Shown: piece after piece, positions 6,952-12,156 of the stretch
Position numbering within the stretch: position 1 is the stretch's first letter
Layout: each line of letters begins with the position of its first letter
NCBI GenBank assembly: GCA_015067525.1
Contig: SVMH01000006.1
Span: forward strand, 1-64,000
Reading direction: 5' to 3'
DNA length: 64,000 bases
Origin: Oscillospiraceae bacterium
GTDB lineage: Bacteria; Bacillota; Clostridia; Oscillospirales; Oscillospiraceae
Notes under the pieces: generated by a model
What the model saw: only the letters and a program-made list of their open reading frames with translations
Databases searched by the model: none
What the model was told of the DNA's origin: nothing
Position numbers and translations under genes: made by a program

Positions 6952-6979
6952 AAGGCAAATCGCGCACGAGGTGAAATGT

Positions 6980-8008
6980 ATGCAATCCAAACGACTGGGC
7001 CGCCAGACGGTGCGGCTGAGCCGCCCGCCCAGTGTGGTGTCCTTTGCCGCTATCGGCAGCCGCCAGGAGGCCAAGGGGCCGCTGGCCGCCTACTTTGATG
7101 AGCTGTCCCCCGACTCCTTCTTCGGTGCCAAGACCTGGGAGCAGGGCGAAAGTGCTATGCAGAGCCGCGCGCTGCAGCGTGCCCTGCAAAAAGGCGGCCT
7201 GAAACCGGCAGATCTGGACTATATCCTGGCCGGCGACCTTTTGAACCAGTGCATCGGCACATCCTTTGGTCTGCGGGATTTCCAGATCCCCTTTTTCGGC
7301 CTGTACGGTGCCTGCTCCACCATGGGCGAGAGCATCGCTCTGGCGAGTCTCCTCATTGACGGCGGCTTTGCCCGCATTGCCGGCGCCATGACCTCCTCCC
7401 ATTACTGCACCGCCGAGCGGCAGTACCGCATGCCGGTTCCCTACGGCAGCCAGCGCACCCCTACTGCCCAGTGGACCGCCACCGCTTCGGGGTGCTGCAT
7501 TTTAGGCGCGCAGGGTGACGGCCCCTATGTCACCCACGTCACCTGCGGACGCATCGTGGACAAGGGCATCACCGACGCCAACAACATGGGCGCTGCCATG
7601 GCGCCCGCCGCCTATGATACCCTTGCCGCCCACTTCCGGGAGACGGGCCGACAGCCCCGCGACTACGACCTGATCCTCACCGGCGACCTGGGCGCGCTGG
7701 GACGGGAGATCGTGGTTGACTTCTTCTCCCGCGACGGCATCGACATGCGCCATAATTACAACGATTGCGGCCTCATGCTCTACGACCTGAAAAAACAAGA
7801 CATGCACGCCGGCGCCTCCGGCTGCGGCTGCTCGGCGGCGGTACTCAACGGCTATCTCCTGCGGCAGATGCGGCAGAAGAAGCTCAGCCGCATCCTCTTT
7901 GCCCCCACGGGGGCACTCCTCTCCCCCACCTCTTCCTTTCAGGGGGAGAGCATCCCGTCCATCTGCCACGCGGTGGTATTTTCCAACGAGAAGGAAGGAT
8001 CAAACTGA
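6980..8008 (+). CDS. spoVAD: Stage V sporulation protein AD
   Basis: A 342-residue soluble thiolase-fold protein of the SpoVA channel. The channel moves Ca-dipicolinate into the forespore and releases it at germination; SpoVAD is the DPA-binding component. It shows the family blocks FFGLYGACSTMGESIALAS (near residue 112), SSHYCTAERQYRMPVPYGSQRTPTAQWT (around 145), and HNYNDCGLMLYD...GASGCGCSA (around 265). I chose the ATG at 6980, which has GAGGTG 6 bases upstream; a GTG at 6971 lies inside that ribosome site. It is followed directly by spoVAE. Normal neighbour spoVAC is not present. Confidence 0.95.
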   Translation: MQSKRLGRQTVRLSRPPSVVSFAAIGSRQEAKGPLAAYFDELSPDSFFGAKTWEQGESAMQSRALQRALQKGGLKPADLDYILAGDLLNQCIGTSFGLRDFQIPFFGLYGACSTMGESIALASLLIDGGFARIAGAMTSSHYCTAERQYRMPVPYGSQRTPTAQWTATASGCCILGAQGDGPYVTHVTCGRIVDKGITDANNMGAAMAPAAYDTLAAHFRETGRQPRDYDLILTGDLGALGREIVVDFFSRDGIDMRHNYNDCGLMLYDLKKQDMHAGASGCGCSAAVLNGYLLRQMRQKKLSRILFAPTGALLSPTSSFQGESIPSICHAVVFSNEKEGSN

Positions 8009-8365
8009 ATGGATTATATCAACGCCTTTCTCTGCGGCGGCTTGTTGTGCGCCGTGGGACAGATCATCATTGACAAGACCAAGCTGACCCCCGCCCGCAT
8101 TCTGGTGGGCTATGTGGTCTCCGGCGTCTTCCTGCAGGCCATCGGGGTCTATCAGTATCTGGTGGACTGGGGCGGCGCCGGCGCCACCGTACCGCTGACC
8201 GGTTTTGGCTACACGCTGGCAAAAGGCGTGCAAAAGGCCGTGGCGGAAAAGGGACTTCTCGGCGCCCTGACCGGCGGACTCACCGCCACCGCCGGCGGCA
8301 TCACCGCCGCTATGCTCTTTGCACTCATCGCGGCGCTGATCTTCAAGCCCGGGGACAAGCGATAA
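8009..8365 (+). CDS. spoVAE: Stage V sporulation protein AE (SpoVAEb type)
   Basis: A 118-residue membrane protein with the characteristic N-terminus (MDYINAFLCGGLLCAVGQ), the KLTPARILVGYVVSGV segment, and a glycine-rich central loop. It has three to four hydrophobic segments. It belongs to the spore inner-membrane SpoVA dipicolinate channel. The ATG follows the spoVAD stop with no gap and uses AAGGAAGG inside the spoVAD end as ribosome site. A strong terminator follows within 6 bp, so the transcript carries only spoVAD and spoVAE. Confidence 0.93.
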   Translation: MDYINAFLCGGLLCAVGQIIIDKTKLTPARILVGYVVSGVFLQAIGVYQYLVDWGGAGATVPLTGFGYTLAKGVQKAVAEKGLLGALTGGLTATAGGITAAMLFALIAALIFKPGDKR

Positions 8366-8370
8366 AAAAA

Positions 8371-8395
8371 CAGAGCGGGAACCCGCTCTGTTTTT
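8371..8395 (+). terminator. Terminator after spoVAE
   Basis: A 9-bp perfect stem CAGAGCGGG / CCCGCTCTG with an AA loop centre, followed by TTTTT. It lies just 5 bp before the csoR -35 element. Confidence 0.92.
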
Positions 8396-8399
8396 ATCA

Positions 8400-8428
8400 T
8401 TGACAAATACCCCCAAGGGGTATATAAT
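8400..8428 (+). promoter_or_regulatory. csoR-copA promoter with CsoR operator in the spacer
   Basis: TTGACA (8400-8405), 17 bp, TATAAT (8423-8428), a consensus sigma-A promoter. The spacer holds the 17-bp inverted repeat ATACCCCCAAGGGGTAT (8407-8423), which matches the known CsoR operator type. Bound CsoR would block RNA polymerase; Cu(I) would release it. Confidence 0.92.
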
Positions 8429-8441
8429 GTCCCCAGGAAAT

Positions 8442-8458
8442 ATACCCCCAGGAGGTAT
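8442..8458 (+). promoter_or_regulatory. Second CsoR-like operator overlapping the csoR ribosome site
   Basis: ATACCCCCAGGAGGTAT repeats the operator at 8407-8423 with two changes that create GGAGG (8451-8455). That GGAGG is the Shine-Dalgarno of csoR, 7 bases before its ATG. The same bases would thus serve as a repressor half-site and a ribosome site. Confidence 0.7.
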
Positions 8459-8462
8459 TACT

Positions 8463-8762
8463 ATGGAACAGTGCTGCCACTGCCAGAAAACGAAAGAACG
8501 CACGGAAGAAGAGCGCCGCGCCCTCATCAACCGCCTCAGCCGCATCGAAGGACAGGTGCGCGGACTCAAGGACATGCTGCAGCGCGACGCCTACTGCCCC
8601 GATATTCTGGTGCAGGTGTCCGCCGTCACCTCAGCCCTCAACAGCTTCAGCAAGGAGCTTCTCAGCAGCCACATCCGCACCTGCGTGGCCGACGGCGTCC
8701 GCCATGGCGACGAGGACGTGATCGACGAGCTGGTGTGCGTGCTGCAGAAAATGATGAAATAA
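8463..8762 (+). CDS. csoR: CsoR-family copper-sensing transcriptional repressor
   Basis: A 99-residue all-helical repressor. The family motif [17 protein letters not shown] lies near residue 25. The Cu(I) ligand set is visible: Cys in DAYCPDIL (about residue 45), His in LLSSHIRTC and the Cys that follows it (about residues 70-74). This fits the C-H-C pattern of copper sensors rather than the formaldehyde or nickel branch. The N-terminus has an extra CCHC, which may also bind metal. It precedes copA by 11 bp and is controlled by the two CsoR-type palindromes at 8407-8458, implying autoregulation. Confidence 0.93.
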
Positions 8763-8773
8763 GGAGGCCGCCT

Positions 8774-11290
8774 ATGAAACAAACCTTTCAGGTAACCGGC
8801 ATGACCTGCTCGGCCTGCTCGGCCCATGTGGAAAAAGCTGTGGGCAAGGTAGCGGGCGTGGAGAGCTGCCCCGTCAATCTGATGCTGGGCAGCATGGTGG
8901 TGACCTATGATGAGAACACCGCCAACGCAGACCAGATCATCGCCGCCGTGGTGGGCGCCGGTTACGGCGCCCAGCGGGCAGAAGAAACGGGCCGCGGCAA
9001 GGTAAATGCCGCCCACGACGAAGCGCTCGCCAAAATGCACCGCCGTCTGGTGTGGTCCATCGTATGCCTTGTCCCCCTCTTCTACCTCGCCATGGGCCAC
9101 ATGATGGGCCTGCCGGTGCCCCATTGGTTCTTCGCCTCGGAAACCGGCCTGTGGGCCTATGCGCTCATCCAAATCGCGCTGCTGATCCCCATCGTCATCC
9201 TCAACCGCGCCTACTTCACCGTGGGCTTCTCCCGCCTTTTCAAGGGTGCGCCCAACATGGACACGCTGGTGGCGCTGGGCGCGGCGGCCGGCATCGTATA
9301 CAGTCTCATTACCCTCATCGCCGGCGTGGCCGACTACCACATGCCGGAGTTCTATTTTGAATCCGCCGGCATGATCCTCACGCTGGTGACGGTGGGCAAA
9401 TTCATGGAGGAGCGCTCCAAGGGTAAGACCACCGGCGCCATCTCCGCCCTGCTGGCGCTGGCGCCCGACAGCGCCGTGGTGCGCCGCGACGACAAGGAAG
9501 TCACCGTGGGCGTGGAAGAGATCGCCGTGGGCGACACGGTCATCGTCCGCCAGGGCGGTAAGATCCCGGTGGACGGCACCGTCACCGCCGGACACGGCGC
9601 GGTGGATGAATCCGCCCTCACCGGCGAAAGTCTGCCGGTGGAGAAAACGGTGGGCGACACCGTAGCCTCCGCCACCATCTGCCGCTCGGGTTATCTGGAG
9701 CTGGAAGCTAAGCGCGTGGGCAGTGACACCACCCTGGCCCAAATCGTCCGTTTGATGGAAGAGGCCGCCTCCTCCAAGGCACCCATCTCCCGCCTTGCCG
9801 ACAAGATCAGCGGTATTTTCGTGCCCACCGTCATCACCATCGCCGTGGTGTCGGCGCTGCTGTGGTACTTTGTGGGCCATATGTCCCTCCACTTCTGCCT
9901 GTCCATCGGCATCGCCGTGCTGGTGATCTCCTGTCCCTGCGCGCTGGGTCTGGCTACTCCTGTGGCCATCATGGTAGGCACCGGTAAGGCCGCCGAATAC
10001 GGCATTCTCATCAAGTCCGCCGAAGCGCTGGAAACGCTGCACAAGGTAGACACGGTGGTGCTGGACAAGACCGGTACCGTCACCGAGGGCCGTCCCCGCC
10101 TGACCGATCTGCTGTGTCTAGGCGACACCACGGAGGAAGAACTCCTGTGCCTGGCCGCCTCGGTGGAAAAGCTGTCCGAGCATCCCCTGGCCCACGCCAT
10201 CACGCAGGCCGCCGAAGCGCGCAATATCCCCCTGTGCCCCGTCACCGATTTTACCGCCATCCCCGGCGGCGGTGTGGAAGCCACGTTGGACGGCAAGACC
10301 ATCCACGCCGGCAACGCACGCTTGATGGAGCGCTGCGGCATCGACGTAGCTTCCCTTGCCGGTCACGCCGCCGCGCTGGCGGAGAACGGCAAAACGCCCC
10401 TCTTCTTCGCAGACGGTGAGGAGCTGCTGGGCGTCATCGCCGTGGCCGACACCGTCAAGCCCGACAGCGCCAATGCCATCGCGCAGTTGAAGGCCATGGG
10501 TAAGCGGATGGTGCTCCTGACCGGTGACAATCAGCGCACCGCCGATGCCATCGCCGCCGAGCTGGGCATCGATCAGGTCATCGCCCAGGTGCTGCCCGCC
10601 GACAAGGCCGAAAAGGTAGCGGCGCTGCGCCACGAAGGCCGCACCGTGGCCATGGTGGGCGACGGCATCAACGATGCGCCCGCCCTCGCCACCGCCGATG
10701 TGGGCATCGCCATCGGCGCCGGCACGGACGTGGCTATTGAGTCGGCCGACGTGGTACTGATGAAGAGCACGCTGCAGGATCTCTCCGCCGCCATCGCTCT
10801 CTCCGCCGCCGTAATCCGCAATATCCGCCAGAATCTCTTCTGGGCCTTTTTCTATAATTCCATCGGTATCCCCGTGGCCGCCGGTATTCTCTACCCCGCC
10901 TTTCAGATCACGCTCAACCCCATGATCGCCGCCGCGGCCATGAGCCTGAGCAGCGTGTGCGTTGTGTCCAACGCATTGCGCCTGCGCCGCTGGAAGCATG
11001 TGGGCCGCACCGAGGTACCCGCCGCCCCCGTTGCCGAAATCACCGAGATCCAAGAAGTAATCGAAACCAAGGAGGAAACCGCTATGACAAAAACCATGAA
11101 AATCGAAGGCATGATGTGCACCCACTGCTCCGGCCGCGTGGAGAAGGTCCTCAACGCCCTGGAAGGCGTCACCGCCACGGTGGACCTGCAGGCCGGCACC
11201 GCCGCCGTCACCTGTGAGGCAACCGTCACCGACGAGCTGCTGCGCAAGACGGTGGAAGACGCCGGTTACGATGTGGTAAGCATCGACTGA
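8774..11290 (+). CDS. copA: Cu(I)-exporting P1B-type ATPase with a C-terminal CopZ-like domain
   Basis: An 838-residue membrane ATPase that pumps Cu(I) out of the cytoplasm. Order: N-terminal heavy-metal-associated (HMA) domain with GMTCSAC (Cys 12 and 15), eight predicted TM helices, actuator TGES, transport-site CPC (residues 387-389), phosphorylation motif DKTGT (Asp431), SEHPLAHAI, and [10 protein letters not shown]. After the last TM helices comes a linker with an [14 protein letters not shown] stretch. A second complete HMA domain follows (residues 771-838, GMMCTHC). Normal CopA carries HMA domains only at the N-terminus. The C-terminal copy has the size of free CopZ and its own ATG and ribosome site. 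The start at 8774 has AAGGAGG upstream. Confidence 0.95.
11084..11290 (+). CDS. copZ: Possible free copper chaperone CopZ made by internal initiation
   Basis: In the copA frame, ATG at 11084 is preceded by AAGGAGG (11069-11075) with an 8-base spacer, the strongest type of ribosome site. Starting there gives 68 residues ([17 protein letters not shown]...), exactly the length and fold of stand-alone CopZ with its MxCxxC copper site (Cys 12 and 15). There is no stop between the ATPase and this domain, so it is also the end of CopA. Either the two genes fused and kept the old start, or the domain is deliberately made in two forms. Existence of the free product is inferred. Confidence 0.5.
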
Positions 11291-11295
11291 GACCT

Positions 11296-11336
11296 AAAAA
11301 GCAAGCCCATTCCCGTCGGAATGGGCTTGCTTTTTT
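11296..11336 (+). terminator. Terminator after copA
   Basis: A perfect stem of at least 15 bp, AAAGCAAGCCCATTCC / GGAATGGGCTTGCTTT, with a CGTC loop and T-run. Its 3' arm also contains the TTGCTT that fits as -35 for pnuC. Confidence 0.93.
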
Positions 11337-11355
11337 GTTCGATTTGTCGTATCAT
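11327..11355 (+). promoter_or_regulatory. Candidate pnuC promoter
   Basis: TTGCTT (11327-11332, inside the copA terminator arm), 17 bp, TATCAT (11350-11355). It would start a transcript near 11362 with a leader of about 105 bases before pnuC. Confidence 0.5.
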
Positions 11356-11361
11356 CATTCC

Positions 11362-11456
11362 ACAACCCCATATCTGCCACCGGGCAGGAATGCATGCGGC
11401 ATTCGTTTACGCGTCGTTAGGTCTTTGAAGATGCGTATACGGATGCTTCTTTTTTT
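11362..11456 (+). promoter_or_regulatory. pnuC leader with terminator/antiterminator design (candidate riboswitch)
   Basis: The leader holds hairpin CTGCC/GGCAG (11374-11387) and hairpin GAATGC/GCATTC (11388-11404). It ends in a terminator-like hairpin GAAGATGCGTA / TACGGATGCTTC (11427-11449, one bulge and one mismatch) followed by seven T (11450-11456). The pnuC ribosome site CGGAGG comes right after. The segment TACGCGTC (11408-11415) can pair over 8 bp (one G-U) with GATGCGTA (11430-11437), the 5' arm of that terminator. The two structures exclude each other, as in transcription-attenuating riboswitches. I do not recognise the aptamer as a known class. Confidence 0.55.
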
Positions 11457-11466
11457 CGGAGGCCCT

Positions 11467-12156
11467 ATGAAAAAGCTTCTCTCCTACTTTTCCAAAACCG
11501 AACAGGTGCTGTGGTGCACCTCGGCGGCGCTGATTGTGCTGTCCTTCCTCCTCTTCGGCCGGAACGATCTTCTCACGCTGTGCGCCTCGCTGATCGGCGT
11601 CACGTCCCTCCTCTTCAACGCCAAGGGCAACCCCGTGGGACAACTGCTGATGGTGATCTTCAGCCTGCTCTACGGCGTCATCTCCTGGCAGCGCGCCTAT
11701 TACGGCGAGATGTTCACCTATCTGGGCATGACCATGCCCATGGCCCTCTTCGCCCTGATCTCGTGGCTGCGCAATCCCTTCCGCGGCAACCGCTCCGAGG
11801 TGACGGTCAACCGTCTGGCGCGGTGGGAATGGCTGGTGCTTCCGGTGCTCACCGCCGCCGTCACCGCCGTGTTCTATTTCATTCTGGCCTATTTTCACAC
11901 GGCCTACCTGCCTTTGAGCACCTTTTCCGTCACCACCAGCTTTCTGGCGGTGTATCTCACCTTCCGCCGCAGCCCGTGGTTCGCGCTGGCCTACGCCGCC
12001 AACGACGTGGTGCTCATCGCGCTGTGGGCGCTGGCCGCCGCGCAGCAGCGCTCGTTTTTGTGCGTGGTGGTGTGCTTTGCCGCCTTTCTGGCCGGCGACC
12101 TGTACGGCTTCATCAGCTGGCGGCGCATGGCCCGCCGGCAGGCCGAGCTCCGATAA
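11467..12156 (+). CDS. pnuC: PnuC-family vitamin/nucleoside transporter
   Basis: A 229-residue protein with seven to eight hydrophobic segments, the SWEET-like fold of PnuC. Conserved features are SLIGVTSLLFNAKGNPVGQ (about residues 42-60), YGVISWQRAYYGE (near 76) and a C-terminal AGDLYGFISWRRM. PnuC takes up nicotinamide riboside; close relatives PnuT and PnuX take up thiamine and riboflavin by facilitated diffusion, so the substrate is not certain. It has no salvage kinase next to it. The ATG at 11467 is preceded by CGGAGGCCCT, directly after a terminator-like hairpin in the leader, which suggests control by attenuation. Confidence 0.9.
   Translation: MKKLLSYFSKTEQVLWCTSAALIVLSFLLFGRNDLLTLCASLIGVTSLLFNAKGNPVGQLLMVIFSLLYGVISWQRAYYGEMFTYLGMTMPMALFALISWLRNPFRGNRSEVTVNRLARWEWLVLPVLTAAVTAVFYFILAYFHTAYLPLSTFSVTTSFLAVYLTFRRSPWFALAYAANDVVLIALWALAAAQQRSFLCVVVCFAAFLAGDLYGFISWRRMARRQAELR

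Follow-up and report, generated by a model that had tools for sequence, protein, structure and literature searches.

We analysed a window of 64,000 nucleotides (positions 1-64,000, forward strand) at the start of contig SVMH01000006.1 of an Oscillospiraceae bacterium, whose assembly (GCA_015067525.1) is a draft genome of 85% completeness. The window carries a copper operon, which adjoins two sporulation genes on its left and comprises a gene for a csoR-type repressor followed by a copA gene that ends in a copZ-like domain (Table 1). A simple consensus scan of positions 8300-11500 returned no promoter-like site besides the one upstream of csoR. The spacer of this promoter contains a CCCCCAAGGGG palindrome, and a second element, CCCCC/GGAGG, overlaps the csoR ribosome site (both in the 8400-8462 region). 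These CCCCC/GGGG palindromes resemble CsoR operators and are probably elements of this kind through which the entire operon is controlled.

Table 1. Coordinates of the copper operon, its internal features and its left neighbours in the window.
Feature	Position	Strand	Evidence or remark
spoVAD, stage V sporulation protein AD	6971..8008	+	TIGR02845 424.9 bits, cut-off 411.8; left syntenic neighbour
spoVAE, stage V sporulation protein AE	8009..8365	+	TIGR02839 144.1 bits, cut-off 131.1; adjoins the copper operon on the left
Promoter-like TTGACA-17-TATAAT before csoR	8400..8428	+	12/12 consensus bases
csoR-type metal-sensing repressor	8463..8762	+	Pfam PF02583 100.8 bits
copA-copZ fused gene, 838 aa: N-terminal HMA, P1B-1 ATPase, linker, C-terminal CopZ-like domain	8774..11290	+	TIGR01511 587 bits, cut-off 397
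N-terminal HMA domain of CopA	8783..8965	+	PF00403 56.9 bits
Linker after conserved NALRL stretch	10991..11083	+	Length and sequence differ among relatives
Internal ribosome-binding site AAGGAGG, codons AAG GAG GAA (KEE) in frame	11069..11075	+	8-nt spacer to ATG 11084
Internal copZ ORF, ATG 11084, 68 aa, HMA fold family, GMMCTHC	11084..11290	+	PF00403 59.9 bits
Intrinsic-terminator-like hairpin, directly 3' of copZ	11296..11335	+	18-pair stem + T tract

A preliminary description of this locus had noted that copA continues without a stop into a 68-residue HMA domain, and direct reading of the frame from 8774 to 11290, together with a Pfam HMA match at residues 774-833, confirms it. The translation passes the curated cut-off of the P1B-1 copper-transporting ATPase model (TIGR01511) and contains the DKTGT, CPC and GDGxNDAP motifs (the last one as GDGINDAP), which are marks of P1B-1 ATPases. 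Its nearest named match, among the best 80 of 590 candidate loci, is the CopA of an Oscillospiraceae genome (L055; 64% identity). The AAGGAGG motif at 11069-11075 and the in-frame ATG at 11084, which had been noted in the same description, are also present in the sequence, and reading from this ATG to 11290 gives a product of 68 aa. Taken alone, this product matches the Pfam HMA model with an E-value of 3.3e-16; it has the length, the fold family and the MxCxxC motif (here GMMCTHC) expected of CopZ, and phmmer matches it to the solved CopZ structures 6ff2, 1k0v and 2qif. Its scores fall below the curated cut-offs of the named CopZ models (58.1 of 91 for NF033795; 52.7 of 85 for NF047957), as does that of the standalone copZ of a congener (68.5 of 85 for NF047957). 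The 68-aa product thus looks like CopZ and probably works like it, though it lies outside the named CopZ models.

A separate copZ beside copA is the usual arrangement according to PMC10187127, in agreement with the preliminary description, and five named relatives are split in this way. The chaperone family and the pump are the same there as in the window, but a stop lies between the two genes, whereas in the window the pump gene encloses the entire chaperone gene in the same frame. This organization suggests the following scheme. Ribosomes starting at 8774 would produce an 838-residue copper-exporting ATPase with a CopZ-like metal-binding domain tethered at its end. A second set of ribosomes would start in frame at ATG 11084, guided by the AAGGAGG motif in a weakly structured, A-rich stretch, and would yield this domain of 68 residues in free form, a soluble copper chaperone loading the pump.

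Within the window gene, an equally good ribosome site is found at none of the 76 other in-frame ATG, GTG or TTG codons of the open frame. Shuffling the synonymous codons of the linker in this single gene gave P = 0.33 for the site, given the peptide KEE; such shuffling has little significance at a single locus, because this peptide already favours a ribosome site. As the site of the window is not improbable given KEE, the case rests on comparison among relatives, and per-gene shuffling was replaced by codon choice at fixed positions and by reading-frame changes across loci.

We surveyed 130 CopA loci, namely 50 CopA matches, near-full or partial, in the window's genome and its relatives, plus the best 80 named loci of 590 candidates, among which fused genes are favoured because the six search peptides included one from the C-terminal domain. 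A C-terminal HMA domain is located in the same frame as copA in 119 of the 130 loci. The remaining 11 consist of five loci with a separate copZ shortly after the copA stop (all five among the 80 named loci), five without a tail HMA domain and one cut by a contig end. To judge from these sequences, the fused arrangement is widespread in Clostridia and not peculiar to the window's genome; cultured commensals that carry it include Ruminococcus bromii ATCC 27255 (L126) and Evtepia gabavorous (L079). Although the window comes from a draft genome, the chance that its fusion merely reflects a stop codon lost through faulty assembly or sequencing is negligible, as the 119 fused loci include isolate genomes and that of L011 (2 contigs, 100% completeness).

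The linker varies among loci, yet its end repeatedly shows a ribosome site together with a start codon. The preliminary description had suggested asking whether the site is conserved in homologues, and it is: a start preceded by a site with a dG of at most -8 is present in 97 of the 119 fused loci, as against 2.4% (2035) of 84405 control windows from the same genes. The corresponding figures are 108 loci and 10.3% of control windows at -5.5, and 62 loci and 0.8% at -10; since the control windows are overlapping and lie in other contexts than the site, these ratios measure enrichment and are not P-values. The dG values are based on a presumed anti-Shine-Dalgarno sequence, not on one read from the window's genome. 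One locus (L122) has a dG of -9.8 with an unrecognised core and was excluded as a site by our automatic rule. Phase calls are uncertain for weak sites, and at L084 the script chose a GTG beside an ATG.

Several observations indicate which level of information is kept at the end of the linker. The ribosome site is not tied to one reading frame and is found in each of the three: in phase 2 in 83 loci (peptides KEE, QEE, EEE, MEE and others), in phase 0 in 21 (QGG, EGG, KGE and others) and in phase 1 in three (ERRE and others). On a tree of the CopA core, from which the linker was excluded, at least 14 phase changes are found among 105 loci (a quick tree with many weak branches, ahead of which L040 and L053 had been set to site-less by hand). 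Codon choice is also constrained: where M or V stands at position -8 from the GMxC motif, a glutamate at -12 is encoded by GAG in 66 of 69 cases, against 37.6 (sd 3.8) predicted from gene usage, and a lysine preceding this glutamate is encoded by AAG in 50 of 51 cases, against 173 of 471 for other lysine codons nearby. In addition, a start codon lies exactly eight codons before GMxC in 90 of the 119 fused loci (88 ATG, one GTG in L011 and one TTG in L119). Codon, phase and start counts are raw, with kin loci at full weight. Finally, all 107 scored loci have less structure around the start than the average of the other windows of that gene (mean z +2.5, uncorrected for base composition), which A-richness alone may explain. 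The conservation expected of in-frame internal initiation, at the DNA level and for both ribosome site and start codon, is thus found, and it indicates a constraint acting on the DNA of these elements, and not on the peptide.

This constraint bears on two rival explanations. According to the first, the internal site would pause elongating ribosomes and so aid the insertion of CopA into the membrane ahead of synthesis of the last domain, without any initiation. Internal Shine-Dalgarno-like sequences have been proposed to cause such pauses, and the site comes soon after the membrane part. Pausing, however, needs no start codon, yet one is found exactly eight codons before GMxC in those 90 loci, and the free copZ genes of congeners start at the same ATG (see below), so that we consider pausing very unlikely. 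According to the second, free CopZ would be released by proteolysis of the linker, which is long and variable, or translated from a transcript of its own with an internal promoter; differential transcript formation is named for E. coli CopA(Z) in the title of Drees 2017. Proteolysis leaves the conservation at the DNA level unexplained, the only promoter-like site detected by the consensus scan precedes csoR, and a transcript beginning within copA would have to be translated from that same start in any case. This second explanation is unlikely too, if slightly less so than pausing.

Fused loci that lack the site provide a test of internal initiation. By the automatic rule, 12 of the 119 fused loci have no usable site, and 14 when hand calls are included for L040 and L053, which keep GAGGAG before a GTG (positive by the automatic rule, site-less by hand). 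Thirteen of the 14 site-less genomes, that is, all except the genome of L122, were examined for free HMA proteins, with one weak match (G011:C1) left aside. A free CopZ was found in ten of them, two being looser calls (L148 and L151, with at most 54% and 49% identity to any fused domain), and not in the other three (G014, which is 65% complete, G043 and G060). Among 34 genomes with a site, namely the window's own and its relatives, no free CopZ was found when every non-CopA match was examined; a few of these genomes have only weak sites (L016, L023 and L047). The window's genome, at its 85% completeness, yielded no other CopZ, and its sole further HMA match over the cut-off is of the DCANC type. 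Of 35 named genomes with a site, four contain a free CopZ-like gene among the matches listed, short frames having been examined: Acetobacterium tundrae, a Treponema, Christensenella intestinihominis and, doubtfully, Ruminococcaceae Marseille-P2935.

Over all genomes, free copZ is therefore found in 10 of 13 site-less genomes versus 4 of 69 genomes with a site (Fisher P = 1.1e-7, kinship ignored); with automatic calls for L040 and L053, the figures are 8 of 11 site-less genomes versus 2 of 36 with a site. Eight of the 13 site-less genomes form one group in the CopA-core tree, and independent losses amount to two or three pairs on well-supported branches and about six altogether, a number with which a sign test cannot reach significance. 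A further 37 named genomes, searched with one CopZ query each, are outside all these counts: the best match is located in a frame of more than 800 aa in 36 of them and in a 144-aa frame in G130, and shorter-frame matches there were left out (for example G123:C301, 106 aa, and G121:C60, 183 aa). The preliminary description had held that relatives keeping the fused domain while losing the ribosome site would speak against internal initiation. Such relatives exist (the 12 of 119 above), yet they support it, because 10 of the 13 examined carry a free copZ.

The same comparisons bear on the possibility that the site is a relic of an ancestral separate copZ, in which the stop was lost, only the fusion is made, and the site and the methionine were kept by chance or for the sake of the linker peptide. 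Split copA-copZ pairs, with copZ shortly after the copA stop, do occur in 5 of the 80 named loci, and KEE alone makes a near-site likely. A relic would nevertheless be expected to decay, and here the site persists through at least 14 frame changes and with a strong synonymous bias amid a highly variable linker, while its losses tend to accompany a free copZ. We thus find this scenario improbable, to about the same degree as release from the linker or from a separate transcript.

Other small HMA proteins of site-bearing genomes were not counted as CopZ, all on the basis of motifs read by eye. Rejected families include DCANC or similar CadA/ZntA-type small HMA domains, the GM(M/A)C(G/S)MC family, the LTCPSC family (L156 in G033, also present in split genomes) and membrane-anchored HMA proteins; L155 was rejected as an N-terminal fragment of CopA, and L157, L158 and L221 as devoid of CxxC. 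The DCANC-type protein of the window's genome (about 72 aa, L003:1489-1707) is located directly before a second heavy-metal P-type ATPase, and similar proteins are common to many relatives. Many relatives also carry a small HMA protein with the motif GM(M/A/S/T)C(G/S)MCE.H, a metal motif unlike that of CopZ, and a basic, EKK-like C-terminus (L142, L150, L163, L169-L174, L182-L184 and L188). The apparently membrane-anchored proteins are about 125-135 aa long, and many contain a stretch rich in Cys, for example CCGGG (L138, L141, L144, L197-L203, L205, L207, L208, L210, L211 and L233); three of them (L138, L141 and L144) lie near copA, and for L207 and L208 the script displayed one of two domains.

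Seven congeners provide us with a natural separation of the two genes. In all of them a free copZ starts 66-116 nt past the end of the spoVAE match, and spoVAD is also found in front of it in six, the contig of the seventh ending first. At this place none of the seven congeners gave a match to the window's CopA core or CsoR, and a search with whole CopA returned only its last 68-99 residues there, plus cross-matches of the N-terminal HMA domain. The free copZ begins at the homologous ATG and has its own ribosome site in 7/7 cases. Among window-type loci (L005-L020), where the fused copA-copZ gene occupies this place, spoVAE lies upstream in all 16, and csoR was recognised in 12. Six of the seven free copZ are 69-85% identical to the nearest fused CopZ domain at a site-bearing locus, versus 35-52% to the domain on the CopA of their own genome; for the seventh (L146), these values are 64% and 56%. 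The top match for L140, L143 and L145, alone or tied, is L060, from a named non-congener. Two histories would account for this: deletion of csoR-copA with survival of the inner copZ, or insertion of csoR-copA before copZ. Deletion seems the more likely event at the spoVAE place, because the fused state is commoner both in the survey and at this place. On both views, close kin have a separate gene that starts at the internal ATG.

Conservation at the DNA level in changing frames, low mRNA structure at the site, complementarity with free copZ and the homologous ATG of the congeners together strongly support internal initiation giving a fused ATPase and a free chaperone, as the preliminary description had proposed. 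We regard it as highly probable that this one gene gives rise to two proteins, fused CopA and free CopZ. Cells probably make the short protein, and it would carry Cu(I) to CopA, given its family (an HMA domain with GMMCTHC and solved CopZ relatives). The recurrence of the fused state in 119 of 130 loci, in a sample that favours fused genes, suggests that the tethered copy may also be useful and selected.

Other systems offer partial parallels. One of the metal-binding domains of Archaeoglobus fulgidus CopA is C-terminal. This P1B-1 pump has two metal-binding domains, like the window CopA, and was used with the organism's own CopZ (PMC11970713). The excerpted text of PMC11970713 mentions no internal start. 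Two products of one gene, as proposed here, are known for the Shigella type III secretion C-ring protein Spa33, which is unrelated in protein and function. The short form of Spa33 is said to be its C-terminal domain, made from an internal start. Alternative translation of the gene into the full-length protein and a second product is described in PMC4832279. In E. coli, copA yields a 70-aa putative chaperone by programmed -1 frameshifting (PMC5009743). There a single copper-ATPase gene gives a pump and a short putative chaperone, as proposed for the window, but frameshifting makes the latter from the 5' part of copA, whereas the one proposed here is the C-terminal domain, obtained by in-frame internal initiation. 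The window gene does not fit the E. coli type, in which the free product is N-terminal, as its internal ORF is the C-terminal domain. No description of an in-frame internal copZ was found in the openly licensed literature, as represented by excerpts.

Frameshifting in E. coli is thus already known as a one-gene source of copper pump and chaperone, and internal initiation, if true, would solve the same problem independently and in frame, and would seem to be widespread among Clostridia, many of which come from animal guts. Internal initiation within copA is likely to be the normal source of free chaperone in a large part of this class, as well as in some Selenomonadaceae, Treponema, Faecalitalea and one Bifidobacterium record, so that no separate gene for it would be seen there. 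The ratio of pump to chaperone would then be set by translation of a single mRNA, with exit from this state through gene splitting or through loss of copA with the inner copZ kept. Many proteins of about 68 residues that gene finding would miss would then be predicted. The loci form a natural series (split, fused with an internal start, fused without it, and inner gene alone), which allows the advantage of a tethered versus a free chaperone to be asked directly.

A few surveyed loci show variants of the fused gene. The CopA of a relative (L022) has two C-terminal HMA motifs and no internal start, and that of Faecalitalea (L091) has three such motifs. The Bifidobacterium phasiani record, assigned to an actinobacterium (L100), carries a fused copA-copZ with an internal start that groups with clostridial genes, reflecting either horizontal transfer or contamination.
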